Assembly (NCBI GenBank): GCA_017459075.1
Contig: JAFUDQ010000024.1
Location: 1-42,085, forward strand
Origin: Bacteroidales bacterium
GTDB taxonomy: Bacteria; Bacteroidota; Bacteroidia; Bacteroidales; UBA932
Direction of reading: 5' to 3'
DNA length: 42,085 nt
Below are positions 5,742 through 39,706 of this stretch, piece by piece. A model generated the notes under the pieces. It did no database searches and was not told the DNA's origin. It worked only from the letters and a program-made list of their open reading frames with translations. Each line of letters opens with the position of its first letter. Within the stretch, counting starts at the first letter, position 1. A program made the position numbers and the translations under genes.

Positions 5742-5767
5742 ATTTTGTCTTTAATTATGTGTCAAAA

Positions 5768-6934: not shown

Positions 6935-6969
6935 TATTTTTTGGCTGCGCGGTTATAGTTTAGTGGTTT

Positions 6970-7000: not shown

Positions 7001-7028
7001 CAGTTTTTAAAGAAAATAGGACGAATCG

Positions 7029-22103: not shown

Positions 22104-22976
22104 GGCTTTGGATGGTTAATTCTTTTTATTGTTGCCATCTTGGTCGCTGTGTGGGTGATAGCAACGCTCAGGACCCGAAGGAAGGATATCAGGAAGGTGG
22201 CATACATGATGGATGCCCTGGAAGACGGGGAACTTAACTTCCGTTTCCAGGATAAAAACAAATTCAACCGCACCCTGAACCGCATCCGCACCATCTTTGA
22301 AAAGCAGCGGCAGCAGCACGAGCAGGACTCCTGGACCAAACTCATACGCGTGCTCACGCACGAGATAATGAATACAGTGTCGCCGATTGCTTCCCTCTCA
22401 GATGCTTTGTCAAAGTCGATGGATGAGACAGGCCACAGCGAGCTGGATGTAAAGGCCGGGCTGGACACAATTTCCGACTCCTCCAAGAATCTCATCAAGT
22501 TCGTGGAGACCTATCGGGAACTCTCCGGCGTGGCCCGCCCGGTAAAGAAAGCCATCGACCTGCAGGATCTGATGGACAAAGTCATCGGCCTTGATAAGGA
22601 ACTTTTGGCCGCCAGGGATGCGCATTGCAGCTATGTCGCTGAAACAGAGGACCTTATTATTTATGCCGATGAGGGCCAGATATCGCAGATTTTCATCAAT
22701 CTTATAAAAAATGCCTTGCAGGCGGGTGCAAAGCATATCAGCATAACAGCAATGCTGAACAGGGAAGATGAAACCGTCATCCGCGTTGCCAATGATGGTG
22801 AGCCCATACCCGTTGCCAGTCAGGAGCAGATATTCGTTCCGTTCTTCACCACGAAGAAAGAAGGCTCCGGCATAGGCCTCTCCCTCGCCCGCCAAATCAT
22901 GCGTCAGCACAACGGTTCTATCGACCTGGTTAAGAGCGACGTGAACGAGACCGTATTTGAACTACGATTCAGGTAA
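21975..22976 (+). CDS. NtrB-like membrane sensor histidine kinase, copy 1
   Basis: A 333-residue histidine kinase, presumed partner of the adjacent regulator. The first 43 residues are encoded by hairpin element B and look unlike a natural protein start. One membrane segment follows (about 46-64, GWLILFIVAILVAVWVIA), a short linker, the dimerisation domain with VLTHEIMNTVSP (His 129), and the ATPase with N box INLIKNALQAGA, G1 RVANDGEPI, F box VPFFTTK and G2 GSGIGLSLARQIM. There is no extracytoplasmic sensor domain. The ATG at 21975 is translationally coupled (TAATG), though an ATG pair at 22056 is also possible. A truncated paralogue lies at 39.7-40.6 kb. Confidence 0.9.
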   Translation: MCTILLSTTLRNLWLLVLPTFGGPLPLMMPRAAQVADSSIVHIGFGWLILFIVAILVAVWVIATLRTRRKDIRKVAYMMDALEDGELNFRFQDKNKFNRTLNRIRTIFEKQRQQHEQDSWTKLIRVLTHEIMNTVSPIASLSDALSKSMDETGHSELDVKAGLDTISDSSKNLIKFVETYRELSGVARPVKKAIDLQDLMDKVIGLDKELLAARDAHCSYVAETEDLIIYADEGQISQIFINLIKNALQAGAKHISITAMLNREDETVIRVANDGEPIPVASQEQIFVPFFTTKKEGSGIGLSLARQIMRQHNGSIDLVKSDVNETVFELRFR

Positions 22977-23049: not shown

Positions 23050-23304
23050 ATGATTACTGCAACTTATACAGACCTTCGGTCAAATCTGAAAGGCTACTTG
23101 GACAGGGTAGTAAAGGACTCTGACAATGTCATCGTGAACCGTGGCAACGGGTCCGCAGTGGTGATTATGTCCTTGGAGGAATATGAGTCCATGGTGGAGA
23201 CGGCTTACGTCATGTCCCAGCCGGATCTGGTGGAAGCCATCCGCCATGGTGATGAGGACGTGAAAAACGGGAATTACGAAGTTGTGAACGTCAATGAGTT
23301 ATAA
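23050..23304 (+). CDS. Phd/YefM-family antitoxin
   Basis: An 84-residue protein with the Phd/YefM fold: the start ITATYTDLRSNLKGYLDRV, then a strand with VIVNRGNGSAVVIMSLEEYESM, all typical of the DNA-binding N-terminal domain, and a flexible acidic C-terminal part that would wrap the toxin. It overlaps the toxin gene by 11 bases, the classical arrangement. It should repress its own promoter through the palindrome just upstream, more strongly as a complex with the toxin. Confidence 0.92.
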   Translation: MITATYTDLRSNLKGYLDRVVKDSDNVIVNRGNGSAVVIMSLEEYESMVETAYVMSQPDLVEAIRHGDEDVKNGNYEVVNVNEL

Positions 23305-23569
23305 GATTGCCTTCCTTCCCCATGCGCGGAAGGATTTCGATGAGTGGAAGAAGACATATGAGAAGACGGTTGCCAAAATCAAGGAAATCCTGGGTGACAT
23401 TGCCGAGCATCCCTACTCCGGCATCGGAAAACCTGAGCAGCTGAGGCATAACCTTACCGGCAAGTGGTCCCGTAGAATCAACAAGGCCGACAGGATTATC
23501 TACTCCGTAGACGGCGATAAGATTTTGGTATATGTGTTCTCAATGAAGGGGCACTATCATAACAAATAA
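23294..23569 (+). CDS. YoeB/Txe-family toxin (mRNA endonuclease)
   Basis: A 91-residue RelE-superfamily toxin. The LPHARKDFDEWKK start, HPYSGIGKPEQLRHNLTGKWSRRI and RIIYSVD stretches are the family signatures; the ending GHYHNK has the conserved His and a Tyr near the C-terminus. It would cleave mRNA in the ribosomal A site. Basic residues and the active-site Glu/Arg/His set appear intact, so it is probably functional and kept in check by the upstream antitoxin. Confidence 0.92.
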   Translation: MSYKIAFLPHARKDFDEWKKTYEKTVAKIKEILGDIAEHPYSGIGKPEQLRHNLTGKWSRRINKADRIIYSVDGDKILVYVFSMKGHYHNK

Positions 23570-23986: not shown

Positions 23987-25201
23987 TTATGTCAATTGGG
24001 ATAGTCGTTTGAACTCCTCCTGTTGGCATCTTCTATATTCTGTAATTGACCCATCTTCGTGAATGCAAAGATATCCTACGTAGTCACCATGCTTAAAGAA
24101 TGCTCCAAGAAAAAAGTATTCTTGTGGAGGTAAAGGACCAGGGCCAGGCCATGTTGTCTCATGAAATGTTGATATAGAGTCATAGACATGCTCAACTAAA
24201 ATCTTTCCCGAATTGTCCGTTATTCCATACAGCCCGGATAGGAGATCCTTGTCTATTATGTAGTCTGCTAGTCTCTTTTGAGCCGCATTGCTATAGTAGC
24301 CAAAGAAATCAGTTATACTTAGCGATTCACTACCATTTTTCAATGATATAGATTTGGATTTATCATTGACAAAAACTACCAGGTCTTTTGCGCTGGGGCG
24401 CTCCTGTGGGTTGGGCCTTAGACAAGTCATAATCAAATCGTTCATGTGTTTTGAATATTGCTGCCCAATTGGAAGAGGTAAAAGATCTTCTTTCGTTTGT
24501 ATTTGTTTACGTCCACCTAAACCATCGAATGGAGGCACGCCAATGGCCAGTTCATATAGTGTCGCTCCAAGGGCCCATATATCACAGGCTGTTGAAATAT
24601 AACCTCCTGAAAAGAAACGTTCCGGGGCCATATATGTGGCAGCTCCATAGGTCTTGGCAGGAAGATTAATGTGTGTCAATTCTTTCTTATCTTGACTTAT
24701 ACAATAATCTGAAAGGATGTATTCCCCAGTATTACTTTGTAGTATGTTGGCTGGTTTTACATCTAAGTGAATTACATCATGTTCATGCAAAAACATCAAC
24801 CCGTTGGCAATATCCAAACAAACTCTCCATAGAACATCTTCTGTTAAAGCGTTGCTTTGGGGTAAAAGAGCTCCGCGTTTGTAATATGGCATTACTACGT
24901 GTAAATATTCATTGTCTGTAAAAGAATCAATTATAGGTACAATGTTGGGATGATTATAGTATGAGAATTGTTTATGTTTTTTTTCTACAAGCTTTGCTTG
25001 CGTGTGATTTAAGGCACCTTCTGAATAGATTTTGATTGCGCAGTATTCATTTGTTGTGAGATCAATACATTTCCATACTGATGCATTCCCACCTGAGCCT
25101 ATTTTGTCAATTATTCGATAGCGATTCCTGATTACGCACATAGATTCGGAGTTATCTGAAATAGTAACATCAACAATTGAAGATTTCTTATTTCCGTTCA
25201 T
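23987..25201 (-). CDS. Soluble Ser/Thr protein kinase with divergent catalytic motifs
   Basis: A 404-residue kinase and last gene of the island. The kinase domain (about 27-285) has the Gly loop IGSGGNASVW, Lys 57 in AIK, HLDVKPAN (Asp 147; Leu replaces the Arg of HRD), SDYC (Asp 165) replacing DFG, and YMAPERF with the APE motif. It is thus a non-RD kinase with a modified activation segment, but the catalytic Asp residues remain. The C-terminal 110 residues (GLYGITDNSGKILVEHVYD, GYLCIHEDGSI) resemble WG-type beta repeats. No membrane segment is seen. It starts 28 bases after the papain-like gene and is likely co-transcribed. A weakly active kinase is the cautious alternative. Confidence 0.85.
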   Translation of the reverse strand: MNGNKKSSIVDVTISDNSESMCVIRNRYRIIDKIGSGGNASVWKCIDLTTNEYCAIKIYSEGALNHTQAKLVEKKHKQFSYYNHPNIVPIIDSFTDNEYLHVVMPYYKRGALLPQSNALTEDVLWRVCLDIANGLMFLHEHDVIHLDVKPANILQSNTGEYILSDYCISQDKKELTHINLPAKTYGAATYMAPERFFSGGYISTACDIWALGATLYELAIGVPPFDGLGGRKQIQTKEDLLPLPIGQQYSKHMNDLIMTCLRPNPQERPSAKDLVVFVNDKSKSISLKNGSESLSITDFFGYYSNAAQKRLADYIIDKDLLSGLYGITDNSGKILVEHVYDSISTFHETTWPGPGPLPPQEYFFLGAFFKHGDYVGYLCIHEDGSITEYRRCQQEEFKRLSQLT

Positions 25202-25229
25202 TGCGTATAGTCGTTTATCTTCAATAGTA

Positions 25230-26420
25230 TTAGCGTCGCATTTTATTTGCTATTGATGCCGGAATGGCATTCTTATTAACAACGATATCAGTTGTTTTGT
25301 AGCGAACAAATTCTTTGCTGACATACCAAATACCATTATAGGGTCCAACATTCCCCCATGAATTCTTTACCATGTAATATTCGGTGCCGTTTTGGTCTTT
25401 CGCAATACCATATATATGCATTCCGTGATCATCAGTAGTTGAATAATCATCGAAAGCCTCTTGCCTCATCTCTTGTGTAACGTGAATTTCCGGGCAGGGC
25501 GTTTGGGCATATAATGGAATCTCTCGTGAAGAACTCCCGTTACCAATCCAACGTGCCTGATCACTACCAACAGATATCTTTTCAATATCCGGAACAACAC
25601 CAATGCCAGTTGCGGTGAATCCATCTTCGCTAACATCACTTGCCCAAGCAACTGTATAGCCATTTTCGAGGGCATTGTCAATGATAGCAATTAAATCATC
25701 AAGAGGAACATTCCATGCTGATTGAGCTCTCCAATTGTCAGGAACTTCAATTGTCATAGTCTCATAGAATGGGTGATGAGCCCAAGATGATATATCAACA
25801 TAATCTCCGATATTAATGCCCAATGATTCCATAAATGACTTTGGCGTATACTCTTTACCATCAAGATTAAAAGATTCTGGAATCTCACCTAAATATGCTG
25901 CAGTCATGCTTTTAAATCCTTGTTTCCAGGCTTTAGTCAAGCGCTGGTTAGGATTCTTAATCAGGGCTGAAACAATTGCTTTTAAGACTTCATCCATCTC
26001 GAAATGTACATGTTGCGCAGTGCCATAGTTTAATCCTGGCATTATCTTATCAGGGACAATACCATATGTATCTAACACTGCCAGGACATCACTAAAAGAA
26101 CTGCCAGGACCAAAACTTAAATTGCCATGAAGTCTGACATATTTTACAGCTTTGTCAAAATATGCATTAGAAACAACAAACATCTCACTTAAATCACAAT
26201 CCTTGCCGCTCGCTCTAATAATCTCCGATTCAATAAAGGAGATTCCACTGAAGCACCAGCATGTACCGCTCGACGCTTGATTTTTGATACTTGTGATAGG
26301 ATTCTCTATGATTGTCTTAAACTGATAAGGAACCGGAGAATTTTTTTTGTCTTTATTCTGACAAAAGCCGTTTATCCCAATCAAAGAAATGAATAAACAC
26401 AAGATATAATACTTTTTCAT
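25230..26420 (-). CDS. Secreted papain-fold (C1/bleomycin-hydrolase-like) cysteine peptidase
   Basis: A 396-residue protein with a signal peptide (MKKYYILCLFISLIGINGFC, cleavage just after). The papain triad is visible: oxyanion Gln 48 and nucleophile Cys 54 in NQASSGTCWCFS, His 332 in DDHGMHIYG, Asn 353 in VKNSWG. The large insertion between Cys and His, and overall architecture, resemble the C1B aminopeptidase C/bleomycin hydrolase group rather than short papain enzymes. It should act in the periplasm or outside the cell. It lies between a secreted partner and a soluble kinase in the island operon, an unusual setting for this family. Substrate unknown. Confidence 0.85.
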   Translation of the reverse strand: MKKYYILCLFISLIGINGFCQNKDKKNSPVPYQFKTIIENPITSIKNQASSGTCWCFSGISFIESEIIRASGKDCDLSEMFVVSNAYFDKAVKYVRLHGNLSFGPGSSFSDVLAVLDTYGIVPDKIMPGLNYGTAQHVHFEMDEVLKAIVSALIKNPNQRLTKAWKQGFKSMTAAYLGEIPESFNLDGKEYTPKSFMESLGINIGDYVDISSWAHHPFYETMTIEVPDNWRAQSAWNVPLDDLIAIIDNALENGYTVAWASDVSEDGFTATGIGVVPDIEKISVGSDQARWIGNGSSSREIPLYAQTPCPEIHVTQEMRQEAFDDYSTTDDHGMHIYGIAKDQNGTEYYMVKNSWGNVGPYNGIWYVSKEFVRYKTTDIVVNKNAIPASIANKMRR

Positions 26421-26474
26421 AGTAGGTGTGTTTTAAAGGCCAGATGACCGCTACCATCTGGCCGTATTACAAAA

Positions 26475-27356
26475 TTAGATGACCATGAATGTTTTGCTGC
26501 CTATACAATAATCATTAATCCATACTTCGTATCTATACGTCCCCCGAGACCATGTACCGGAAGTTTTTGAACCCCATCCTGTGAGAGTCTTTTCTTGACT
26601 GGAGATGCTACTTATTGTGACACTGTCGGAAAACGTATAATTCTCGGGAGAAGACGATGTGCTTCTTTGTAAGATATTATCCTTGTATAATCTTATGTAT
26701 AAAGTGTAGGTCCCTGTCTTAAATGGCTTGATAGTAATTCGAGGCTGTAAATATTTTGATTTAGAATAACTAATGGTTGAACCATAATCTTGTATTACTG
26801 TTCCATCGTTTTCAACGTTGGCAACCTCCACCTTAGTTACCAGAAATGGTATTTCGGAAATAGAAGACGAAGAACCTGACGTTTTTTTGATTTCATCCAT
26901 AAAGGCCTTCCTAACATTATTGATTTGGGACATAAGTTTGTAAAAGGATTCTTTAAACAAATCAGCATCTCTGAGATATAGTTCACCACTAATTCTGAAT
27001 GAACCATCAAAACAAACGACCTTAACACCCTTGTATTTATTCAGGGCTTTAGTCGCAAGTGCAACATCATCTTCAGAATAACCATCAGGGTATTTAAAGG
27101 GAATATATAACGAGATATACATAGGGTTTTCATCAACCGATGAAACCGAAACAATACAAGTATAGCCTTCAGACTTGAATCTAATATTACCATCGGGATC
27201 TATTTCTGGCATAAATCCTTCTTCTCTCAAAAACTCTGTAATATCATTCCGAAGCGCAAGTTGTTCTTGAGAGAGTTCCTTATTATCCCCCCAAGTGTTA
27301 ATCGGGCAGAGTACTAAAAGGACAACTAAGTGTATGGCGAATAGCAATTGTTTCAT
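26475..27356 (-). CDS. Secreted protein, YbjN/chaperone-like domain plus Ig-like domain
   Basis: A 293-residue exported protein of unknown function. ATG at 27356 begins a signal peptide (MKQLLFAIHLVVLLVL, likely cut after NTWG); a further upstream frame start at 27389 would overlap the big kinase gene and is rejected. Residues about 25-150 have the look of a YbjN or type III secretion chaperone-like fold (FLREEGFMPEIDPDGNIRFK, then strand MYISLYIPF). A Ser-rich linker leads to a beta-rich C-terminal domain (about 170-293) with strands such as PRITIKPFKTGTYTLYIRLY, Ig-like in appearance. It is tightly linked to the repeat kinase (stop to start 7 bases) and may be its extracytoplasmic partner; that is inference. 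Confidence 0.7.
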   Translation of the reverse strand: MKQLLFAIHLVVLLVLCPINTWGDNKELSQEQLALRNDITEFLREEGFMPEIDPDGNIRFKSEGYTCIVSVSSVDENPMYISLYIPFKYPDGYSEDDVALATKALNKYKGVKVVCFDGSFRISGELYLRDADLFKESFYKLMSQINNVRKAFMDEIKKTSGSSSSISEIPFLVTKVEVANVENDGTVIQDYGSTISYSKSKYLQPRITIKPFKTGTYTLYIRLYKDNILQRSTSSSPENYTFSDSVTISSISSQEKTLTGWGSKTSGTWSRGTYRYEVWINDYCIGSKTFMVI

Positions 27357-27363
27357 TTTGATT

Positions 27364-30300
27364 CTATTTTGTGATTCTTGATAATTCACGCCCCTTACTA
27401 TCCTTTAGAATGCCAATTATGGATACATTTTTAGGTATCTCAAGTTGTTGCTTAAAATTTGTGGTAAGCACTTCTAATCTTTGCTTATAGGTGTCAATCA
27501 TCTTATTGGACATGTCATATTTTGACTTCGGGGTAACGATGACTAATTCTACTCTTGACGGGCTGATGACCTTCGCGGATTGAATGGTTATATTACCTGA
27601 TTCTTCTCCAAGTTTAAATGGAAGATTTTCATCAAAGTCTGATACATCTTTCTGCCAGTTTTTGACAGCCACCCATGAGCCATTTACCATCTGCTCTTGA
27701 AGGAGCATCTTCCCGGCTGCATTATAGTATTTCCTGTCCTTGGGGCTCTGATCCTTATTATATGTAAAGGTCTTTCTCGCAAAACCATAAGAGCTATTCA
27801 CGAGGCCTCCGCCCTTTCCATAGAAACCATATTCAACGCATTGGTTATTGTCATCATATCTGTAACGTTCTTGATGGAAGCCGTTTACAAGTGCTGGCTT
27901 TAAATCAACATCATAATACGATGAGGTTTCTACCTTATTCCCCGTCGTGTATGTATTCACCTGTTTATGATAACCGTCTTTACATTTCGTTGGGGAATCA
28001 TTTTCGTTATAGAATGCTACCCAAAGCAGGTTTTTGTGATTATCATACTCGCAGCGCTTAATAGACCAGCCTGTCTGGGGATTCTTAATCAGATTCCCTT
28101 TTCCATCAAGAGAAGCGAGATAAACTGTGTTGCCCCATTTATCATATTCAACAGCACCTTCCGGGGCCATGACCTTAGGGTCGGTGGGATTACCGTTCTT
28201 GTCAAAAAAGAATTGACGTACTACTCTGCCAAAACTATCATATTCAGACGTAAGGCTGGAGTAGTTTCCTTGGTATACGGCAGGCTTATTGTCTTTATCA
28301 AAATATGCAACTTTGGTCTTAAGACCGCGTTCATCATATTCATCTCGTTCAATACAATAATTGGCGGTTCCAAATGGCGTCAATTCGCCCTTTGTATTAT
28401 AGAAGCAAGTCTCAACACATTGATTACGTTCGTTGAACTTTTGTGTGTACTTATGATAATTCAAATAATTTACCGCCGGCTTTCTTTCAGCATCAAATAA
28501 CGCATATTCAATTAAATTATCCTTATCATCATATTTATAACGAGACATAAGTTTCCCAGAGGCAAGTTTTTGGTTTATTCCAATAGGAACTTCTTCAATA
28601 ATATTCCCATGGTTGTCCACTTTATAATCTGTCCCGGCAATCCCATTCACAAGAACCAAATCTCCCTGAGTATTATAAAAGCGATCACTTAATTCGTGCC
28701 CTTGCTCATCGTAAGTATGCTTTCTTAGAGCAAAGCCTATATAACCTTTGGTCGGTTTGCCATTGATATCGAAGAAACGGCGCTGTGTTTCATTTCCGTT
28801 ATCATCGTATTGGTACTCTACCACTGCTAAACCTTCACTACTTAGAGTAGGATTATCATTTTCATCATAGAATGAAACTTTAGTGATATTACCCCTAATA
28901 TCTCTCTCATAAATGGATGTGCTTACTTTTGTATTATCGGCAGTCGGATTCCCTTCTGTGTCAAAATATGACTCCTTCATTAAATCGCCCATTCTGTTGT
29001 ATGCCCTTGTCAAACCAGCTATACCCGTATTTAATTCACAAGGCTCCCCATCAGCTCCGTAGAAAATCATCTTTACTAAATGGCCAAATTCATCGTATTC
29101 GGCCTTTATTCCTGCATAACCCTCTGGTGTAACTACATACTCGTTGTTGAGATTATAATTCCATCTTTCTAGTTCATTTCCTTTAGAATCCGTCACAATT
29201 CTCATACTGGCGTGGCCTTGTGTAGTAACACACGGTTGATTGTTGGCATCTAAGAACGCAATACTCTTATAAAAGCCATATTCGTTGCATTCCATGACTG
29301 AAATGGCGTAGCCCTGTTTAGAAGCAAATTCAACATTTCCATCTACTCCAAGGAAAGACTGCTTTTTAATGAAGCCGGCGTCATCAAATTCATACTTTAC
29401 GCCAGCTACGCCTTTCATGCCAGGCAACATAAAATGGCCATCTGCGGTTTTAAAATACTGAGCTACTGCATTGCCATATTTGTCATATACGTTCTCACAA
29501 ACGCTGGTACCATCTGCGGCATCAAGAGCAGGTTCTCCGTCAACAGTTAAATAGCGAGATGAAATCCAGTTGTCGTTTTCATCATATGTAAATACTTTTT
29601 TCCCCATTCCCCACTTTGTGGCTTTTGGAGTTCCATCATATGCTAAGTAAGTTTCTTCAATAACGCGACCCTTCGAATCCCTCATATACTGTTTCCCATA
29701 TATTCCGTTTGCATCTCCTACAGGAACATTCTGGAATCCCGCATATCGTAAAGTTTTCACGTAACCTTTCTCATCATATTCTAGTAAGTATCTTGATATT
29801 TTGCCATGGTTCTGATTCGAGGCAAATGCGTCAACGTATCCTATTGTTTCACTGCCAATAGTTTTCTCTGTCCCGTATTCATCATCGAATTGAAATATAA
29901 CGGTTTTAAGTTTCTCATTATACGACTTAATATAGAGAACCTGACCATTTTGGTCCATCACTTTTGCTTTGCTTAAATGATTATCATCATTATAGTAAAA
30001 GAGAATATCAATGGGTCTTTCGTACCTCTCGGATTCTGAATCTGGAATTATTGTCCCCAAACTATTGACATGAGAAACTCGTTGGAGTTTATGATATCTG
30101 GACTCAAAGCGATACATGCGATGCATATGCTTTCTGTCGGACGATGAAATCTTACCAATTCCTTGAGGTATACTATTTTGTTCAACATAATCCTTATAGT
30201 ATGTAATCTTAACTCTGTTATAATCCCAAATGAAGAATACTCCTATCAGAACCACTACCGCAGCTGCAATTGAGCTAATTTTTGCCCATGTGGGAATCTT

Positions 30301-31131
30301 TGGGGGATAAATTGCATTATGCAGGGCTTTTTTAAAATCCTGACAGTTTTGATAGCGGTTCTCAGGTTTTTTGCTTGTCGCCTTATCTACAACAACTTGA
30401 ACTTTATCAGAAACATATTTATAATATGCCTTCATCCGAGGCAATTCATCATCTACAACATGTTTGTAAATATCATGTTCTGTTAGTGTAGTAGTATCAT
30501 ACGGAGGGTTGCCAGTGAGCATCTGATGAAGAAGTACCCCCAAAGAATAAATATCGGATCTTTGATCAAGAGGCTCTCCTTTGACTTGCTCCGGACTCAT
30601 GTAGGAGGGTGTCCCCATAATGACATCTTTATCTTCACTTTCCCCTCTTTCATCAAGAATAGAAGCGATACCAAAATCAAGAATCTTTGGCACTCCTTCT
30701 TTTGTAATGATGATGTTTGAAGGCTTGATGTCCTTATGTATGATTTTATGTTTATGTGCATAGTCAAATGCATCAAGGAGAGGCTCAAAGAAAGAGCAAA
30801 TCTTTTCTTCGACAATTAATCCAGATACATTTTTGATGTAGTCTTCAAGACTAAACCCATCTGCATACTCCATTATTAGGTATATATTCCCGGCGTTATC
30901 GATGTGGTAATTAATGAAATGGACTATATTTGGATGATTCAGACGTGCTAGCCTATCCGCTTCTTGTGCAAATGTTTTTCTGGTGAAGTCATTAATCATG
31001 TTGCTATTAATGACTTTGATTGCTACTTTTTGTTGTGTGATGTACTTGTTTTGCGCGAGGTAGACGCTTCCCATTCCGCCTTTCCCAATTTGGGAGACAA
31101 TGGTGTAGTTTAATATTTCTTTTCCAATCAT
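27364..31131 (-). CDS. Transmembrane Ser/Thr kinase with about 17 extracytoplasmic tandem repeats
   Basis: A 1255-residue bitopic kinase. The cytoplasmic kinase domain (about 8-275) is complete: IGKGGMGSVYLA, Lys 39 in VAIK, HKDIKPSN (Asp 134, Lys at the Arg position of HRD), LDFGIA (Asp 152), GTPSYMSPEQ. One membrane segment follows (about 283-303). Residues about 340-1180 consist of tandem units of roughly 45-50 residues with a core like Y-D-x-x-G-N, an aromatic pair, and F-x-D-x-x-G-x-P, similar to YD/RHS-type beta repeats. They should lie in the periplasm and sense or bind something, or act as a scaffold. The last 75 residues differ. By architecture it is like PASTA kinases, but with different sensor repeats. 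Confidence 0.85.
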   Translation of the reverse strand: MIGKEILNYTIVSQIGKGGMGSVYLAQNKYITQQKVAIKVINSNMINDFTRKTFAQEADRLARLNHPNIVHFINYHIDNAGNIYLIMEYADGFSLEDYIKNVSGLIVEEKICSFFEPLLDAFDYAHKHKIIHKDIKPSNIIITKEGVPKILDFGIASILDERGESEDKDVIMGTPSYMSPEQVKGEPLDQRSDIYSLGVLLHQMLTGNPPYDTTTLTEHDIYKHVVDDELPRMKAYYKYVSDKVQVVVDKATSKKPENRYQNCQDFKKALHNAIYPPKIPTWAKISSIAAAVVVLIGVFFIWDYNRVKITYYKDYVEQNSIPQGIGKISSSDRKHMHRMYRFESRYHKLQRVSHVNSLGTIIPDSESERYERPIDILFYYNDDNHLSKAKVMDQNGQVLYIKSYNEKLKTVIFQFDDEYGTEKTIGSETIGYVDAFASNQNHGKISRYLLEYDEKGYVKTLRYAGFQNVPVGDANGIYGKQYMRDSKGRVIEETYLAYDGTPKATKWGMGKKVFTYDENDNWISSRYLTVDGEPALDAADGTSVCENVYDKYGNAVAQYFKTADGHFMLPGMKGVAGVKYEFDDAGFIKKQSFLGVDGNVEFASKQGYAISVMECNEYGFYKSIAFLDANNQPCVTTQGHASMRIVTDSKGNELERWNYNLNNEYVVTPEGYAGIKAEYDEFGHLVKMIFYGADGEPCELNTGIAGLTRAYNRMGDLMKESYFDTEGNPTADNTKVSTSIYERDIRGNITKVSFYDENDNPTLSSEGLAVVEYQYDDNGNETQRRFFDINGKPTKGYIGFALRKHTYDEQGHELSDRFYNTQGDLVLVNGIAGTDYKVDNHGNIIEEVPIGINQKLASGKLMSRYKYDDKDNLIEYALFDAERKPAVNYLNYHKYTQKFNERNQCVETCFYNTKGELTPFGTANYCIERDEYDERGLKTKVAYFDKDNKPAVYQGNYSSLTSEYDSFGRVVRQFFFDKNGNPTDPKVMAPEGAVEYDKWGNTVYLASLDGKGNLIKNPQTGWSIKRCEYDNHKNLLWVAFYNENDSPTKCKDGYHKQVNTYTTGNKVETSSYYDVDLKPALVNGFHQERYRYDDNNQCVEYGFYGKGGGLVNSSYGFARKTFTYNKDQSPKDRKYYNAAGKMLLQEQMVNGSWVAVKNWQKDVSDFDENLPFKLGEESGNITIQSAKVISPSRVELVIVTPKSKYDMSNKMIDTYKQRLEVLTTNFKQQLEIPKNVSIIGILKDSKGRELSRITK

Positions 31132-31168
31132 ATGACAATTATACTATAGACAATTATACAATTTCAAA

Positions 31169-31654
31169 TTAAAAACTGGCGGCTAGGCCACTTATGAAAC
31201 CAATAGCGAAACTGATGCCTATGCTAATCCATGCAATATTTGCCGCTTGTTTTGCTTTGCTGTGTTCGGTATCCCTCCAAACAAAGTATAGGATAAATCC
31301 TACTATCGGGAAAAGGAATGAAATTATTCCCCATCCCACGCTGATGCTGTCTTTATAAGAAACATCCTGTATGGCTTTTTCACTACCTACCATTCCTCCG
31401 GATACGTTTGGAAGCAACATAAGCACTTGATGCCATGGAAGTGGGACCTTATTTGCTAAATATACAGGTGTGCCTGGCGCGATGACTATTTTTTCATTAT
31501 GATATACCCTTCCGTTGATTGTAGTTCCGTTCTTACTCAAATCACGATAAACGTATTGTCCATCAACGAGTGATATCTCAGCATGTTTTCTGCTTATATA
31601 GGAATCTTGGATAACTATATCACAATTTAATTTTCCGATTGTTATTGTTTTCAT
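31169..31654 (-). CDS. FHA-domain protein with two C-terminal membrane segments
   Basis: A 161-residue protein. Residues 1-75 are an FHA phosphothreonine-binding domain (DSYISRKHAEIS, DLSKNGTTINGR: the Ser-x-x-His and Asn-Gly motifs). Membrane segments lie at about 106-125 and 138-158, with a charged loop between. This tail is clearly related to the tail of the neighbouring kinase-FHA protein (VGWGIISFLFPIVGF against VGYGILSFIVPVVGW), so the gene looks like a kinase-less paralogue. It probably localises phosphorylated partners to the membrane. Its ATG overlaps the previous stop (TAATG). Confidence 0.83.
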   Translation of the reverse strand: MKTITIGKLNCDIVIQDSYISRKHAEISLVDGQYVYRDLSKNGTTINGRVYHNEKIVIAPGTPVYLANKVPLPWHQVLMLLPNVSGGMVGSEKAIQDVSYKDSISVGWGIISFLFPIVGFILYFVWRDTEHSKAKQAANIAWISIGISFAIGFISGLAASF

Positions 31655-33039
31655 TATGTTGCAATTATGGAGGAAATAATGGTAATTGAAATATTAAATA
31701 ATAACCCTAACCATGCAAGTTTATTTGCTTTTTGGGCTTTTGTTGGTGAATCCTTTTTCCAAATCCCACTCAGCACCCAGCCGACTACAGGAACAATAAA
31801 TGATAGAATACCATAACCAACAGAGATATCTTCCGTTACGGTGTGCTGCGGTGTTGGTGGAATTGTGGTTATAGCGCCATTTGTCTGCTTGGGAAGAACT
31901 GATGTCGGACGCCCTGTTTTATCAAATAAAACATTCGCAATTTGCTTCCAATCCAACGTATATTCAGGTAATCCCGACAACATTACAGTAGGGAAGGTAT
32001 TATTATCATTACGCATCGCGTCACCAGTCGCATATGTGAATTCGTAAGAAGAACCTCGAACAAGCCGTCCATTGACACCGGTCCCGTTTGTACTATGGTC
32101 TGTGATAGTAACATGATTTGTCCCAGTATTGAATTCAAAAAGAATCTCCAGGTGGTTCTTGCTAATATATTCTCCACTGATATTGATGTCACAACCCGAG
32201 CGACCGACAGTGATTACGTATCGATTTGCCGACAATTGCTCAGACAATAAAGCCCCCTTAAACTCATTTGCCGATTGGAATCTTAGCCTCATATCTTTAT
32301 TGACTGCTCTTAAAATGGCATTTTGTGTTCGGGCACTAATTGAAATTCCTTTTTCAGACACTAAAGGAAAATTATTGTCAAGAATTGCACATATTGTTTC
32401 GTAATCATTTGAATGCTTGTTGATTGCATGCGAACCTGATAGCATGTAATGCAGAAGACAACCCAAAGAATAGATGTCCGTCCTCTTATCAATATTCAAC
32501 CCATTCGCCTGTTCAGGACTCATGTAACCATCCGTTCCAACTATTCTGCCAATGGTTTTTCCTGTTCTGGTTCTACTGTCTTTTGCTATACCAAAATCTA
32601 TTACACATACTGACCCTGTTGGACGAATCATAATATTCGAAGGCTTTATGTCTCGATGAATGCAGCCATGACTATGGATGTAGTTAAATACATCCAATAG
32701 CTGTGTGAATATGGATAAGGCAGCATCTTCTGAGTAGGGGCCATGAGCTGGATCTTGAACAATCTGGGAAATTGTTTTTCCTTCGATGTATTCCATTGGG
32801 AGAAATAAATTCCCTGATGTGTCTTGATATGGCTCACCAACGATATTTACAATGCAGGGATGCGATAACTTTCGTAAAGATTGAACCTCCTGGTCAAACA
32901 TTTCACGATAGTCTGGGTATGCCGCAGCTTTAGCGCTCATCATTTTGAGCGCAATATGCGTTCCAGTATTGTCATCGGTGGCCTCATATACTGCTCCCAT
33001 TCCACCCTTGCCTATTTCACGTACTATGGTATAAGGCAT
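31654..33039 (-). CDS. Ser/Thr kinase-FHA protein with membrane tail
   Basis: A 461-residue protein with three parts: kinase (about 3-265; IGKGGMGAVYEA, Lys 32, HRDIKPSN with Asp 130, DFGIA Asp 148, GTDGYMSPEQ), FHA (about 275-350; YISKNHLEI, STNGTGVNG), and two membrane segments (about 406-425 and 441-460) with a Pro-rich linker. All kinase motifs are canonical (RD type), so it is the likeliest master kinase of the island. An open frame reaches 33099, but ATG at 33039 avoids overlapping the PP2C gene and starts at the kinase fold. FHA plus kinase in one chain suggests phospho-dependent self- or partner assembly. Confidence 0.88.
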   Translation of the reverse strand: MPYTIVREIGKGGMGAVYEATDDNTGTHIALKMMSAKAAAYPDYREMFDQEVQSLRKLSHPCIVNIVGEPYQDTSGNLFLPMEYIEGKTISQIVQDPAHGPYSEDAALSIFTQLLDVFNYIHSHGCIHRDIKPSNIMIRPTGSVCVIDFGIAKDSRTRTGKTIGRIVGTDGYMSPEQANGLNIDKRTDIYSLGCLLHYMLSGSHAINKHSNDYETICAILDNNFPLVSEKGISISARTQNAILRAVNKDMRLRFQSANEFKGALLSEQLSANRYVITVGRSGCDINISGEYISKNHLEILFEFNTGTNHVTITDHSTNGTGVNGRLVRGSSYEFTYATGDAMRNDNNTFPTVMLSGLPEYTLDWKQIANVLFDKTGRPTSVLPKQTNGAITTIPPTPQHTVTEDISVGYGILSFIVPVVGWVLSGIWKKDSPTKAQKANKLAWLGLLFNISITIISSIIAT

Positions 33040-33058
33040 AATAAACGAGTTTTTTAGG

Positions 33059-34756
33059 TTAAACGGTTTCAAATCTAGGAGCATCAGTAGAGGTGTCACT
33101 ACCCTTATCTTCTAAAGGGGATTTTGGAGTGAGTTTTACCATCAATACTATTATGTCTGTCGTTGAATCCTTCTTATAGCAAGGGATTTGAAAAGAATAC
33201 TCTTGGATAGAAGCTGAACCTTTGAAAACAAGTTGAATTTGTCTTCTGTCTGGAACAAATTTCAAATTCCAATTATCCTTGTCATAAACCACATCGCTAG
33301 TAATTACTTCATCAAGAAGTGTGTCACTTATAGGAATATCCATTCCATTAATTCTAAAACACGGCTTTGCGAAATAGTTAAATAAGATGGGCTTATCAAA
33401 ACTACCAACGTCGTAATTAATCTGCACATTGACGCTTTGGATATTTGGGACCGGTTTTGCTCGCTGGTCACTACGGTCATCCTTTTTGGCTTTCTTGCCA
33501 TTTGGAGAGGGTCGAATGCCTGGTTTATCACTCGAATTGAAAACGGTGATAGTATATTGATACGTTTTGCTCTTATCTTTGGTGTCAATTTTTAATAAGA
33601 CTTTATCTCCTGGATACTTATCTGTAAATTTCAACACCAATGATGGGGCTTTGAACAGAATGTCTACGGCAGGAGAATTTACACTAATAGATTGTAGGTC
33701 CAAAGTCTCTTTTTCAGTATGAACCTGCTTGTCGTTATATTTGAAAACAACGAGATTATCTGAAAACAGTAGCGTGATTAACTCTCCATTCTTTGAGAAA
33801 GGAATCCTTTCCCCTATGGTCACATCCATCACGATAGTACTAACTACATTCTCTATCTCTTCTTGTATACCATCCTGGTCTTCATCTGACTTTTTAGACT
33901 TTATCAGCCAATAAGCACCTAAGCATAGCACTATAACCAATAACGCCGGGATCAAAATTCTCATCCAAAGGGGTATCTTTTTCCCTGGTTTAACTATATT
34001 AGGAGTAACCGGAAATTCAACTATCTGTGCTGTAATGTTATCCACGCCGCCATTTTCATTAGCAAGCATAACAAGACGGTCAACTCTTTCTTGAGCATTT
34101 AATTCACTCTGTTGGCTAACGACTTTATTGATCGCATCGTTAGGAACCATCCCGCTTAATCCGTCCGAACAAAGCAGAAAACAGTCGCCTGCTTCCGGGA
34201 TAATAGCATCGTCAGCTACAGTTGCAGGCGTCATATTAGGAATTCCCAACGCGTTGGTAATTTCATTTTTCCTTGGATGATGTTCAGCTTGCTCTTGTGT
34301 GATTTCTCCACGGTCAACCAACATTTGAACATAAGAATGATCTTTTGTTAATTGGATTATTTTTTTTGAGCGAATTAGATAAATACGACTATCTCCAACA
34401 TGTCCGATATAAACTTTTCCATCACGGACAATAAGCAGAACACAAGTGGATCCCATGCCGGATAATTCTGGATGGGCTTCTGCTTCATTTAAGATAGCAC
34501 GATTGGCTATATCGATTGATTCCCCGATGGCAATCCGAGGATCATCATAATAAGTTGAGTCAAGATTGTCCAGAATGGTTTTTACGGCAATTCTTGAAGC
34601 AGTAGCTCCGCCAACATGACCGCCCATCCCGTCACACACAACGGACACTAATCCATTCTGTGTGACGGCATTTCCCATACTGTCTTCGTTGGCGGCGCGT
34701 TTCCGTCCAACATCCGATTGGCCAACGACGTGACAATAGTTATATTGATCTGTCAT
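33059..34756 (-). CDS. Membrane-anchored PP2C-family protein phosphatase
   Basis: A 565-residue protein. Residues 1-250 are a PP2C (PPM) domain with metal-binding motifs: RAANEDS (Asp 25), VCDGMGGH (Asp 42), GHVGDSRIYL (Asp 122), LLCSDGLSG (Asp 198), GGVDNIT (Asp 239). A membrane helix follows (about 263-285), then an acidic linker and about 260 residues of beta-rich sequence, presumably periplasmic, with a Lys/Asp-rich stretch in the middle; this part is not recognised. It would dephosphorylate Ser/Thr targets of the neighbouring kinases while sensing something outside. Located between FHA and kinase genes (13 and 19 base spacers). Confidence 0.87.
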   Translation of the reverse strand: MTDQYNYCHVVGQSDVGRKRAANEDSMGNAVTQNGLVSVVCDGMGGHVGGATASRIAVKTILDNLDSTYYDDPRIAIGESIDIANRAILNEAEAHPELSGMGSTCVLLIVRDGKVYIGHVGDSRIYLIRSKKIIQLTKDHSYVQMLVDRGEITQEQAEHHPRKNEITNALGIPNMTPATVADDAIIPEAGDCFLLCSDGLSGMVPNDAINKVVSQQSELNAQERVDRLVMLANENGGVDNITAQIVEFPVTPNIVKPGKKIPLWMRILIPALLVIVLCLGAYWLIKSKKSDEDQDGIQEEIENVVSTIVMDVTIGERIPFSKNGELITLLFSDNLVVFKYNDKQVHTEKETLDLQSISVNSPAVDILFKAPSLVLKFTDKYPGDKVLLKIDTKDKSKTYQYTITVFNSSDKPGIRPSPNGKKAKKDDRSDQRAKPVPNIQSVNVQINYDVGSFDKPILFNYFAKPCFRINGMDIPISDTLLDEVITSDVVYDKDNWNLKFVPDRRQIQLVFKGSASIQEYSFQIPCYKKDSTTDIIVLMVKLTPKSPLEDKGSDTSTDAPRFETV

Positions 34757-34769
34757 GGTTATATCTCAA

Positions 34770-35366
34770 TTAAAACTCGGGTATAGCAATGAAAATGAAC
34801 TTTGTACCACCTATAACAATCACGTCCTTATCCTTGAGGTCAATAACATCGCCAAGGACATATACTTGACCGTTGACATAACTGCCGTTTGCGGAGCCTT
34901 TGTCGTATTCTTGTGCCCTGAATGCACCCTTTGCTTCCACATATTGTATGAGGAGATGTTTGGCAGACATATGACTATCGTTAGGGAAAGGAATGTCGCA
35001 AGTTCTGTCGCGGCCGATGGTGGTACGACCTTCATAAATTTTATAGACTTCTCCGGTGGGAATAGCACTGTAAGAAACCAGAAGTCCAACCAAACGTCGG
35101 TTTTCACTTAAGCCAGTCTCTCCTGTAGAATGAGTATTTAAATGTCGTATTACAGTTGCTCCACCAGCAGATTCATTCTCGCCAATACCAATAGTTTCAG
35201 TGGGGCTAACGGGCTCATCATTACCCCCTAATACTCGAGTCCCAGATTCTTCGAAGGAGTCTGAATTAACCTTTGTTGTTCCTGACGGGGAAGGACAGAA
35301 TGGACATTTGTCACCGTAAATTGCTGGGTCATAAAGATGACCATTAACGCATTTTTTTGTAGCCAT
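34770..35366 (-). CDS. Zinc-ribbon FHA-domain protein
   Basis: A 198-residue soluble protein. The N-terminus has a Cys-x3-His plus CPFC arrangement (Cys 6, His 10, Cys 21, Cys 24) that looks like a small zinc ribbon. A Ser/Thr/Glu-rich linker (about 30-95) offers several Thr residues (ESGTRVLGG, SPTETIGIG, GGATVIRH) that could be kinase targets. The C-terminal FHA domain (about 110-190) has TTIGRDRTCDI, HMSAKHLLI and KGSANGSYVNG. Such zinc-ribbon/FHA proteins are typically phospho-substrates as well as readers, by analogy with GarA/Fha-type proteins. No membrane segment, so it is the likely soluble relay. Confidence 0.8.
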   Translation of the reverse strand: MATKKCVNGHLYDPAIYGDKCPFCPSPSGTTKVNSDSFEESGTRVLGGNDEPVSPTETIGIGENESAGGATVIRHLNTHSTGETGLSENRRLVGLLVSYSAIPTGEVYKIYEGRTTIGRDRTCDIPFPNDSHMSAKHLLIQYVEAKGAFRAQEYDKGSANGSYVNGQVYVLGDVIDLKDKDVIVIGGTKFIFIAIPEF

Positions 35367-35411
35367 AATATATAATTTATTAAATCATGAATGCTTTATT
35401 ATCGACAATTA

Positions 35412-36884
35412 TCATAAGTATTTATTGACAAAATCAATCACAGGATTTGGCTGGATAGCCTGATTATAACCTTGGGATATACCCAAAAAACCTGACACAA
35501 TTATTCCAGCGAAACGTCCCTTGTTGTCAAATACAGGAGAACCACTCGCTCCTTGATGTATGGTTATGTTGTGACCATATTCATATACTCCACGTTCTTG
35601 TGTAATTTCGCCACTTTGATTGTTAGCTTCAAGACCAACGGATGTTTGGCCAATTGTAAACGAACGAGGAAATCCAATAGTACAGATTTTATATCCGATC
35701 TGTAACTTTTCTGAAGGGGTTGTTTCTTTTAAATCTACATAAGTAGATCCATTAGGAAGTGATTTGGAATTCATTTGTAAGATTGCTACATCCAGTTCCG
35801 GGTCATCACTAGTCTTTAGAATAGTACACGGGAGCAGGTCTTCTTCTCTACTGATATAGGTGTCATTTTGTACTATGCCTACACTGATAACCATATATTT
35901 AACTTCAACGGCTGCTGCCAAACGTGATAAGTTGTTCTTTATAAGGACAGATTGGATGGCATGCTTAACGGTTTCAACATTATTCTGCTCTTCAGTTGAA
36001 CTACCAACGACGTGGCGATTCGTGAGAAATTTGCCATCTGTAGATATGAAGAAACCGGTACCAGAACTCCTTGCAATTCCAGAAGAAATATTCCCTTCGC
36101 CATCAATATAGCAGTAATCTAGCTGATCGTAGCCATTTAGAAATGTACTAAGAGGGGCGCCTTGTACAGTTGCAGCATATGCGGATTTTACATATACCAA
36201 TACAACATCGTTTTTATGTTCAGAGTAAATTTTACTCCAGTCTTTGGAAAACCAGTCCCATGGTTTAAACAAGAACACTCCCGCAGTGATAATTACCGCT
36301 GCTGCAACTGCCATTAATATGGCCGGGTTAAAAGGCTTTCTCGGAGGGTAAATTGCCTCCCAATTCATAGGATGCCTATTCGATAATAGTATGTTATCAC
36401 CCTTCCGAAGCACAACGGGAGCGGAAATCCTTATTCCGTTAACAAACGTCCCATTTGTCGAATTATTGTCAATCAGTAATACACTGCCATCTTTTTGTTT
36501 GCAAAGGAAAGCATGCTTGTCTGACACATCGTCAAACGCAAACCGTATTTGAGAAAACGTATTACGGCCGATAATTTTTTTCTCTATTACGGTATCAGGG
36601 ATAGATACTGCAGGCTTTGAAACGTCTGATTTAGACTTTGTCGTTTTAATAATCGTTTTCCAGTCAATAGAATGATTACCTAATAGAACGGTTGATGAAG
36701 AAGATAATGCTTTTTTTGTGTTTATCCTCATTCCGTTGACAAAAGTACCGTTCTTTGATCTAAGATCTTCGATATATACATCACCTGTATCAGATACTGT
36801 AATCAACGCATGAGTTGATGACACCACACTATCATTGATGACGTAATCGCAACTTGTACTTCGTCCAATTTTTATGCTCTTCAT
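35412..36884 (-). CDS. Double FHA-domain membrane trypsin-like serine protease
   Basis: A 490-residue bitopic protein and first gene of the operon. Two FHA domains (about 5-70 and 103-168, each with SxxH or KH and a NGTFVNG turn) are cytoplasmic; a membrane segment (about 186-206) is followed by a trypsin/HtrA-like domain (about 225-490) with the triad His 291 (LTNRHVV), Asp 365 (LDVAIL) and Ser 447 (HQGASGSP). No PDZ domain follows, unlike DegP. Binding of phosphorylated partners in the cytoplasm would thus be linked to proteolysis outside the inner membrane. Start ATG at 36884 fits the first FHA strand. Target unknown. Confidence 0.87.
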   Translation of the reverse strand: MKSIKIGRSTSCDYVINDSVVSSTHALITVSDTGDVYIEDLRSKNGTFVNGMRINTKKALSSSSTVLLGNHSIDWKTIIKTTKSKSDVSKPAVSIPDTVIEKKIIGRNTFSQIRFAFDDVSDKHAFLCKQKDGSVLLIDNNSTNGTFVNGIRISAPVVLRKGDNILLSNRHPMNWEAIYPPRKPFNPAILMAVAAAVIITAGVFLFKPWDWFSKDWSKIYSEHKNDVVLVYVKSAYAATVQGAPLSTFLNGYDQLDYCYIDGEGNISSGIARSSGTGFFISTDGKFLTNRHVVGSSTEEQNNVETVKHAIQSVLIKNNLSRLAAAVEVKYMVISVGIVQNDTYISREEDLLPCTILKTSDDPELDVAILQMNSKSLPNGSTYVDLKETTPSEKLQIGYKICTIGFPRSFTIGQTSVGLEANNQSGEITQERGVYEYGHNITIHQGASGSPVFDNKGRFAGIIVSGFLGISQGYNQAIQPNPVIDFVNKYL

Positions 36885-37912: not shown

Positions 37913-38500
37913 TTAATTGACCACATCTATGAGGTCGAAATACATATACCGTGTAGTCAGGGGCAAATCAATTGCAGCATTCTCCGCTTCTTGCTCTTCT
38001 GTGGAGAATAGGAATTCAAAACCATTCTTCTGATAGTAGTGAATTGTATGAGGCTGGTTGTAAGAATCCACGGCAAGGAAGCGGCAAGCAGCTTTGTTAT
38101 CCGGAAGGATAAACCAAAGTTTGAGAATAACCATCAACTCTGAGCCCACGCCTTTGTCGGCGAAATCTACATTAACCCCCAAACGTCCGATAAGCACGGC
38201 AGGGTAACGGCGAAGGCGTTTTGCATAAGGAATGGAAGAATTGACTTTCTTCTTTCTGCTTCCGGGAAGATGGTCGACACGGACGCTGTCATTGGAGAGG
38301 GTGAATGCGCAGACGATGACGCTGGGATCCTCATCGAGGGTATAACAGTAAGTTTTGCCTAACAACTGCTCCTGATAGAGTGTTGCATCGTGGCAGAAAT
38401 AATCGTCGAGGTCGGCGTTACCACAAACGAAAGGCTTACACGAGGCAAGAATGTCCCGCGTAAGAACACGCAGTGTGCAGTGCTCTGTCAGAAATCCCAT
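37913..38500 (-). CDS. GNAT-family acetyltransferase, probable toxin of a TA pair
   Basis: A 195-residue GNAT enzyme. The acetyl-CoA pyrophosphate-binding stretch GRLGVNVDFADKGVGSELM (Q/R-x-x-G-x-G type, centred on residue 115) is intact, as is a C-terminal HTIHYYQKNGFEFL segment typical of the TacT/AtaT-like branch, which acetylates aminoacyl-tRNA. It is preceded, at a 1-base gap, by a 52-residue basic protein, the size and position of an antitoxin. Substrate is inferred from architecture; an ordinary N-acetyltransferase remains possible. Confidence 0.8.
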   Translation of the reverse strand: MGFLTEHCTLRVLTRDILASCKPFVCGNADLDDYFCHDATLYQEQLLGKTYCYTLDEDPSVIVCAFTLSNDSVRVDHLPGSRKKKVNSSIPYAKRLRRYPAVLIGRLGVNVDFADKGVGSELMVILKLWFILPDNKAACRFLAVDSYNQPHTIHYYQKNGFEFLFSTEEQEAENAAIDLPLTTRYMYFDLIDVVN

Positions 38501-38715: not shown

Positions 38716-38749
38716 CAAATGTAACATTTTTTCTTCATAGCATTGCAAA
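38716..38749 (-). promoter_or_regulatory. Promoter of the GNAT module
   Basis: On the minus strand TTTG (38746-38749), 22 bases, and TACATTTG (38716-38723) fit the Bacteroidetes promoter. It shares bases with the 3' end of the transposase reading frame. Confidence 0.65.
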
Positions 38750-39598
38750 AATTATGCGATTTGGTTGATATAGTGGATGATTCGTTCGACGTGGAGGGAG
38801 ATGATGGCCTGGCTCTGTCGGCCCGAGCCGCAAGGAGGAAAACGGCGGGGCCGTATCGGCAAAAATGCTTATATTTGTCTTAGTGTCAGAGTAGAATTCA
38901 TAGTCCATGGCAATCCTCCGAAAATTTTCCAACCACGAGAATGAGCGCTCCACAATCCAGCGGAGCGGCAGGACATTGAACTTCTTCGAGGATTCATCAG
39001 GCCGGAGGACGACCGAGAACTCCGCGCCTAGTTTCTGGCGGACGGCATCAATGAGTTTTTGTCCTTTGTATCCTCCATCTGCCAGTATCTTTTTCAATCT
39101 TGGGAAGCAACCTTGCATGGCGTCAATAACCGAATGAGCACCTACACTATCATGAATGTTAGCCTTATGAACTACGACACCCAAAGGGAGGCCAAGTGTA
39201 TCAACGACAATATGTTCCTTGCGCCCTTTGATCTTCTTGTTGCCGTCAATGCCTCGGTCGGAAGCAACGTGATGGGAGGATTTGATGCTCCTGGAATCAA
39301 TGATTCCCACACTGGGGGTATCTTCCCGCCCCATCAACTTGCGGACGACGACATGCAGGGTGTCGACCAGCTCCTCAAATACGCCCTCCAACTTCCATTT
39401 GTTGAAATAGTAGAAGACGGTGTTGAAGGGCGGAAAGTCCCTCGGGAGCATACGCCATTGGCATCCCGTTTTGACTATGTTCATGATAGCATCCATAATG
39501 TCCCTGAGAGAGTATTTTCTTTTGCGATGTTGGGGATCCAAGATAATTTCAGTAACTTGCCACTGTTTGTCAGTGAGGTTAGTTGGATATTGACTCAT
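38735..39598 (-). CDS. IS5-family transposase with aberrant C-terminus
   Basis: A 287-residue DDE transposase. From ATG at 39598 it starts MSQYPTNLTDKQWQVTEIIL, has the DUF4096-like N-terminal domain (GCQWRMLPRDFPPFNTV), the first catalytic Asp in GIIDSRSIKSS, the second in ILADGGYKGQ, and the Glu in RWIVERSFSWLENFRR, all typical of IS5. After YSDTKTN the sequence becomes a Pro/Arg-rich tail (TAPPFSSLRLGPTEPGHH) unlike IS5 proteins. A frameshift or fusion to foreign DNA at the 3' end is likely. The last bases also contain the GNAT promoter. Confidence 0.85.
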   Translation of the reverse strand: MSQYPTNLTDKQWQVTEIILDPQHRKRKYSLRDIMDAIMNIVKTGCQWRMLPRDFPPFNTVFYYFNKWKLEGVFEELVDTLHVVVRKLMGREDTPSVGIIDSRSIKSSHHVASDRGIDGNKKIKGRKEHIVVDTLGLPLGVVVHKANIHDSVGAHSVIDAMQGCFPRLKKILADGGYKGQKLIDAVRQKLGAEFSVVLRPDESSKKFNVLPLRWIVERSFSWLENFRRIAMDYEFYSDTKTNISIFADTAPPFSSLRLGPTEPGHHLPPRRTNHPLYQPNRIIFAML

Positions 39599-39706
39599 AA
39601 CTTTAATTGATTGGTACTCATAAGTTACGAAAAATATTTCAATTAACCTACTGACTTTCAATTATTTACATATCCCATTAGCAAAATTTTTCATTCAAAT
39701 TTAAAC
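38735..39706 (-). mobile_element. Truncated IS5-type insertion sequence
   Basis: The insertion contains the transposase and ends on the right near 39706, where homology between the second histidine kinase copy and the first one begins. The right boundary is a guess (end TTTAAACAGC). A matching inverted repeat was not found on the left, so that end seems lost or fused. No target duplication could be identified. Confidence 0.45.

Follow-up and report, generated by a model that had tools for sequence, protein, structure and literature searches.

A conserved operon joining kinases, a phosphatase and FHA proteins to a protease

An island of nine intact open reading frames (ORFs) lies on the minus strand at positions 23987–36884 of a 42,085-nt stretch of DNA from a Bacteroidales bacterium (GenBank assembly GCA_017459075.1, contig JAFUDQ010000024.1, positions 1–42,085); this whole stretch is referred to below as the window, and the ORFs are named A to I in transcription order. 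On sequence comparison, genes A to G are a conserved operon. We place about even confidence in the reading that A–G make up a horizontally moving, self-contained phosphosignalling module of the inner membrane, which resembles the threonine phosphorylation pathway (TPP) of type VI secretion systems (T6SS) and ends in a tethered protease, which as output would replace, or add to, the secretion machine.

Intergenic distances from A to I are +45, +13, –41, –1, +37, –26, +54 and +28 nt. The two larger overlaps (C/D and F/G) may be start-codon artefacts, since the likely starts of D and G are internal Met codons. The island encodes three Ser/Thr kinases, one PP2C phosphatase and four FHA-bearing proteins, of which one is a kinase and one a protease. 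An initial annotation of this DNA had listed nine one-strand genes with short gaps or overlaps, three kinases (one with an FHA domain and one repeat-rich), a PP2C phosphatase, three further FHA proteins (one trypsin-like) and a papain-fold peptidase, with no secretion or vWA genes, and the present analysis agrees with that description. No vWA or secretion-system family was found among the nine proteins by Pfam, apart from an overlap of FHA domains with the type III secretion model Yop-YscD_cpl, for which A scored above and E below the cut-off. Genome-wide, Pkinase has four matches, of which three fall in the island, and PP2C_2 has three, of which one does; a second place with PP2C, kinase and FHA genes is found on contig C26.

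Relatives were sought by similarity to A alone, with a six-row A alignment run against a collection of 84,980 species genomes and by searching 299 genomes from the bacterium's own family. The scan of the species-genome collection is not a census, so that operon and locus counts from it are lower bounds, and the completeness of metagenome-assembled genomes (MAGs) limits every absence given here. At least five other Bacteroidales genomes contain collinear operons (loci L104, L105, L238, L239 and L240). In L104, from a Phocaeicola MAG, the order is A-B-C-D-E-F-G, with identities to the window of 48, 50, 68, 49, 52, 45 and 42%, respectively, in local alignments. L105, from a Paludibacteraceae MAG, has A-B-C-D-F-G plus a second, longer relative of G; L238 has A-B-C-kinase-D-x-F, L239 has A-B-C-D-F-G, and L240 has A-B-C-kinase-D followed by the contig end. 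With presence judged by blastp at 1e-4, A, B, C and D occur in all six operons including that of the window, F in five (L240 being cut), E in two, and H and I in one each, the only better matches of I being to the general kinase domain.

The A proteins of the six operons form a single clade (support 100/100). Trees of A, C, D and F part the window and L104 from L105 and from L238–L240, with the caveats that C is weakly supported at that split, that F lacks L240, and that B joins L104 with L105 instead. Sequence conservation is distributed unevenly within the proteins. The PP2C domain of C is 52–72% identical to that of the window in the five relatives, whereas its ectodomain is only 10–18% identical; the corresponding values for F in four relatives are 52–75% for the kinase and 28–37% for the ectodomain. 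Identity ranges from 35 to 58% for the protease and from 36 to 46% for the FHA part of A, and the His and Ser motifs of the protease are kept in all six operons. To judge from these alignments, conservation inside and divergence outside fit the pattern expected of variable sensors with a conserved output.

The proposal that all nine genes form one unit thus held for A–G and failed for H and I. H was rejected as a core member because homologues (E ≤ 1e-30) are found in 56 of 61 genus genomes including its own, where a second homologue is also present; by sequence, it is an ordinary C1 peptidase of the genus that shares the island composition. Gene I was seen in this operon alone among the six.

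Architecture of the encoded proteins

Transmembrane (TM) helices are predicted once each in A, C and F and twice each in D and E, and G has a signal-like helix. A (35412–36884) consists of two FHA domains, a TM helix (residues 188–206) and a trypsin-like protease (residues ~261–490), with Pfam matches to FHA (twice) and Trypsin_2; the protease domain is HtrA-like. B (34770–35366) has an NH2-terminus that resembles a zinc ribbon by its CxxGH..CxxC pattern, followed by an FHA domain, with no predicted TM helix. C (33059–34756) combines a PP2C domain of the Stp1/IreP type (244.2 bits, against a model cut-off of 230 bits) with a TM helix (267–285) and the fast-diverging ectodomain (291–565). D (31654–33099) is a Ser/Thr kinase with an FHA domain (Pfam) and a two-TM tail, and its probable start is the inner Met21. 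These four genes and F belong to the conserved core. E (31169–31654), an FHA protein with a two-TM tail, is like the COOH-terminal half of D.

F (27364–31131) is a protein of 1255 amino acids with a Ser/Thr kinase domain (1–275), a TM helix (283–301), an ectodomain built from ~20 copies of a 32-residue repeat, and a COOH-terminal cap. The ectodomain gave an RHS_repeat match (E = 0.0046) below the family cut-off, and its structure model resembles RHS/YD-repeat solenoids locally. A profile of the ectodomain had no match among Protein Data Bank (PDB) sequences, and closure of a YD shell was not predicted in the model. RHS polymorphic toxins carry a DPxGL-like cleavage motif and a variable toxin tip. 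Such a motif (D[PR]xG[LIV]) is absent from all five F proteins, and no toxin tip was seen in F. The model suggests that F is a receptor-like kinase with a YD-like ectodomain. The 32-residue repeat of F recurs in three proteins encoded beside PP2C, FHA and kinase genes in a Prevotellaceae MAG (L119:3335–6524).

G (26475–27389) has a signal-like NH2-terminus and two parts, with relatives in L104, L105 (two) and L239. Its earlier labelling as a YbjN-like or Ig-like protein could not be confirmed, since no Pfam family matches it at E ≤ 0.1; its profile gave only three weak rows (E 0.29–0.95) against PDB sequences. The accessory genes are H (25230–26420), which encodes the papain-like Peptidase_C1_2, probably secreted and with island-like composition, and I (23987–25201), a Ser/Thr kinase with a weak WG-repeat-like tail below the cut-off.

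The glycine loop, the Lys and the HxDxKxxN motif are present in kinases D, F and I, and kinase I has DYC where DFG is expected. C retains the Asp motifs of PP2C enzymes, A the His/Asp/Ser and H the Cys/His/Asn of their respective catalytic sites. A model for PASTA kinases covers only the kinase part of D, F and I and scores below its cut-off. The PADLOC names PD-T4-6 and mad6 were likewise dropped for these three proteins, since their PADLOC matches, among the best 25 of the 34–36 listed, cover the kinase part only.

Composition, flanking genes and transfer

The GC content of the island is 38.9%, compared with 50.3% on its left and 55.2% on its right, in line with the AT-richness noted initially. 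At third codon positions, GC is 0.32–0.36 in all nine island genes and 0.60–0.75 in five flanking chromosomal genes; other flank genes have values of 0.64 (a YoeB-like gene) and 0.52–0.53 (GNAT and insertion sequence genes). In L104, too, the operon is AT-richer than both flanks, and in L105 and L239 it exceeds the left flank in AT content, the right flanks compared there being only 75 and 407 nt, respectively; the flanks of L238 are as AT-rich as the operon, or more so. In the tree, the window A is nearest to a Phocaeicola A and not to A proteins of its own family, among the matches listed. In L238, a relaxase gene is followed by a tyrosine integrase gene, with A starting 0.5 kb behind. On the basis of the AT-rich composition relative to the flanks, the nearest A in Phocaeicola and the position of L238 behind the relaxase and integrase genes, the operon was probably acquired horizontally.

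The island is flanked by an 805-nt direct repeat (82% identity; window 22154–22957 and 39741–40544), which corresponds to two histidine-kinase paralogues. The right copy is without a start and adjoins an IS4/5-type transposase gene (38735–39661), and related histidine kinases (E ≤ 1e-60) are present in 32 of 61 genus genomes, with at most three matches per genome. We therefore rejected the repeat as a target duplication made by insertion: it is a paralogue pair, and the copies are too diverged for a fresh duplication. Also in the flanks are the YoeB-like toxin gene (23294–23569), at the left edge of the island (region 23051–23569) and with a small ORF upstream that is presumably its antitoxin, and a GNAT-like protein below Pfam cut-offs (37913–38500), likewise with a small ORF upstream, in a zone of intermediate GC between the island and the transposase gene. 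In L105, the operon adjoins the gene for a BspA-like repeat protein (5672–8047) that weakly matches a caspase (PADLOC E = 9e-6). A VapE-like gene and genes for type II restriction-modification occur close to the L104 operon. The neighbours of L239 are chromosomal housekeeping genes by Pfam, and several neighbours in L105 are, we assume from their sequences, housekeeping genes as well.

Several of these features would also suit an anti-phage defence system, whose kinases would respond to an entering phage or a damaged envelope and whose proteases would carry out an abortive or blocking response. The mobility signs, the restriction-modification genes near L104, the weakly caspase-like protein near L105 and the toxin gene beside the window island all point in this direction, as does the antiphage activity of the kinase-phosphatase module KKP, described in PMC11341870. 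We nevertheless regard a defence role as unlikely: the PADLOC matches of D, F and I are confined to the kinase part, the surroundings of L239 and apparently of L105 are of the housekeeping kind, and two scans of viral contigs returned no relative. The defence role had been raised initially as an inference; of the six operons, one (L104) lies near type II restriction-modification genes. Carriage as phage cargo was also rejected: the two viral-contig scans gave no relative, and the one 'phage' record (L083), a 6-kb scaffold from faeces without annotation, has a match to the FHA half alone.

A general role in signalling envelope stress or nutrient state, chromosomal in origin and unrelated to conflict, appears very unlikely for the operon. 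The HtrA-like protease domain and the looser PP2C/kinase/FHA sets of many Bacteroidales would suit such a role, but sporadic occurrence, alien composition and, in one case, a position beside integrase and relaxase genes are unlike a housekeeping stress system. These looser sets, seen at many loci in L084–L103, comprise a small FHA protein, a protein of ~480 amino acids with a COOH-terminal FHA domain, a PP2C and a kinase, in varying combination.

A wider family of FHA-FHA-TM-trypsin loci

A was searched for in 120 relatives, 393 genomes of the order, 299 genomes of the family, plasmids and species-genome contigs; matches to the FHA half only or to the protease half only were not counted. At least 18 other loci encode an FHA-FHA-TM-trypsin protein, with a kinase gene near it in all 18 and a PP2C gene in 16, the two misses being L242 (contig end) and L208. 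The synteny check across Bacteroidales that had been proposed at the outset thus yielded both these associations and the collinear operons. For comparison, kinase and PP2C genes were both present at 15 of 80 loci with an FHA pattern across phyla (54 of them at least 15 kb long; L104 and L105 included), and a kinase or PP2C gene was found in none of five neighbourhoods of relatives with the protease half only (L041, L043, L051, L205 and L241), one of which is a 3.9-kb contig. Kinase and PP2C neighbours therefore mark the FHA-protease architecture beyond FHA genes in general. Protease-half matches in genus g209 made up 13 of the 21 matched genomes in the family search (among L219–L235; E ~1e-27 to 1e-35), and a g209 neighbourhood (L241, genome G617) contained no further kinase, PP2C or FHA match. 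L205 (G460:C12) is a long cluster that includes a weak match to DO-GTPase2, an 862-amino acid protein with trypsin at its end, a GH25 protein and two relatives of G.

In a tree of 18 A proteins including that of the window, four groups were each set off by branch support of 100/99 or 100/100; L208 is outside this tree and inside the 18-locus count, and L242, with its A cut by the contig end, is in both. The first group comprises the six operons described above. The second (L037, L199 and L200) lies beside type VI secretion genes of type iii (T6SSiii). The third (L040, L242 and L243) lies beside a TssR-like vWA protein (in L243, 2–13612, E = 1.7e-16 to PF20782), an ABC ATPase and an FtsX-like permease, the shared genes being recognized by blastp; PP2C is present in L040 and L243, and no TssC was found in the genomes of this group. 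The ABC/FtsX pair bears a resemblance to TagTS, as far as such an analogy can be drawn. The fourth group consists of six loci with WG-repeat proteins (by Pfam in L203), one of them on a Phocaeicola massiliensis plasmid; a WG protein also occurs in the T6SSiii group (L199). In L242 and L243, the protease His escaped the pattern used to find it; the residue is present there with a different neighbour.

Relation to type VI secretion

In genome G330, the module runs into genes for ClpV-like, TssB-like (named by position, with no Pfam match), TssC (1.9e-130), two TssD and VgrG-like proteins, and TssC is also near the module in two further genomes, G053 and G345 (in G345 at a contig end). At L199 and L206 (G330), L037 and L246 (G053) and L200 (G345), the T6SSiii cluster is accompanied by genes for FHA-trypsin, PP2C and several kinases, possibly a phospho-controlled subtype of T6SSiii. 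A search for the terms kinase and FHA found neither in the main texts of the Bacteroidales T6SS papers PMC4714493 and PMC10781749, so phospho-control of T6SSiii would be new if confirmed.

TssC (PF17541) was not found in the genome of the window (G000, 98% complete; the genome-wide search covered TssC and no other T6SS type), and we consider the island unsupported as a T6SS accessory of its own genome. Nor was TssC found in the genomes of L104, L105, L239 (G508, 86% complete) and L240 (G614, 55% complete); the genome of L238 (G531) has it on another contig. TssC is present in 17 of 393 order genomes. Ten of these genomes were opened: G330 and G345 had the module, and the fetched stretches of the other eight had neither PP2C nor FHA-trypsin genes, one of them having an unrelated kinase. 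Given that TssC was not found in most operon genomes, nor the module in the stretches fetched from these eight, the module looks like an independent cassette that joined T6SSiii in one lineage. The contrast with T6SS sets drawn initially stands as regards the genome of the window and falls as regards its relatives, three of which carry the same core beside T6SSiii and three others beside TssR-like genes.

These associations bear on the idea that the operon is an orphan regulator whose machine (a T6SS, or one for adhesion or secretion) has its genes at another place in the genome, which we consider improbable. The relatives adjoining T6SSiii genes in G330, G053 and G345, the TssC gene on another contig in G531 and the Sel1/BACON and outer-membrane-barrel genes that follow the L238 operon would fit this idea. 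However, five of the six operon genomes yielded no TssC, at the completeness given above for G614 and G508, and the operon carries its own protease and receptor-like kinase.

Some observations weigh against the self-contained signalling module that we favour. G is present in only four of the six operons, with none seen in L238 (and L240 cut). The eight T6SSiii loci without the module loosen the link to T6SS, and the parallel is drawn from distant homologues (~30% identity for A). L208 (G224) has no PP2C gene on its whole contig of 17.4 kb. The model of F is good locally and poor globally (pTM 0.44). Positive-inside charge counts leave membrane orientation undecided; of the envelope-spanning arrangement first proposed, a predicted span of the inner membrane is therefore retained, and its orientation is assumed by taking the kinase, PP2C and FHA domains as cytoplasmic. 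In L208 (9674–12729), the FHA-FHA-TM-trypsin protein, of 431 amino acids, is encoded directly behind a kinase gene, possibly a minimal form.

Comparison with known systems and a model for the module

The T6SS TPP comprises the kinase PpkA, the phosphatase PppA and an FHA protein, with membrane damage sensed by the ABC-like TagTS together with TagQR, according to PMC5995506 and PMC10482370. Kinase, PP2C and FHA proteins are likewise encoded together here, and distant homologues of the island core adjoin T6SSiii genes. The island differs in having neither TssC in its genome nor a T6SS family among its nine proteins, in the TM helix and protease of its FHA protein A, in the TM helix and ectodomain of its PP2C, and in the modelled long repeat solenoid of kinase F. 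In TPP modules, assembly of the secretion system is permitted when the kinase phosphorylates Fha or TssL.

The prophage KKP system (PfkA-PfkB-PfpC) shares with the island a PP2C followed by kinases, one of them with FHA, the island order being C, D, then E (FHA) before F. The PfkA-type kinase has a cold-shock domain, according to PMC11341870, whereas the island kinases have none by Pfam, and the island adds a protease, TM parts and further FHA proteins. C passes the cut-off for Stp1/IreP phosphatases, which act with PASTA-type kinases; D, F and I differ from the latter in matching the PASTA-kinase model in the kinase part only, and the island adds FHA and protease partners. Sets of the vWA/TerY-P type consist of a vWA protein with a PP2C and a kinase, and the island has no vWA protein. 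The model of the F ectodomain matches the repeat solenoids of RHS/YD-repeat proteins and teneurins locally, and F would be single-pass with its NH2-terminus inside, as in the type 2 topology of teneurins described in PMC5898268. F differs from both in its cytoplasmic Ser/Thr kinase, its unpredicted shell closure, and the lack of a DPxGL-type motif or visible toxin tip.

From the domain composition, we propose that the repeat ectodomain of F, and perhaps the variable ectodomain of C, would sense an envelope or cell-contact cue; F and D would phosphorylate Thr residues, and C would reverse this. The FHA domains of A, B, E and D could then gather on phosphorylated partners, and clustering of A might switch or localize the presumably periplasmic trypsin-like domain so that an envelope substrate is cut, with G as a putative periplasmic partner. 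In a narrower version, which we consider rather doubtful, the teneurin/RHS-like YD-repeat ectodomain of F would recognize a neighbouring cell, or its injected or shed products, and would lead to FHA-guided activation of the tethered protease. The operon would then be a mobile receptor system in which contact or danger sensing is wired like T6SS control, without the secretion machine.

The literature yielded little on comparable Ser/Thr phosphosignalling in Bacteroidota, and, as far as literature listings indicate, no paper was found on the Bacteroidales FHA-trypsin protein set or on a kinase with a YD-repeat ectodomain. The split between conserved inside and variable outside parts makes both the search for ligands and the protease read-out directly testable. 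The loci described here outline one family of exchangeable modules, in which an FHA-FHA-TM-trypsin protein, a PP2C and kinases are encoded next to T6SSiii, TssR-like/ABC-permease or WG-repeat genes or, in the window, with a receptor-like kinase whose ectodomain is YD-like.

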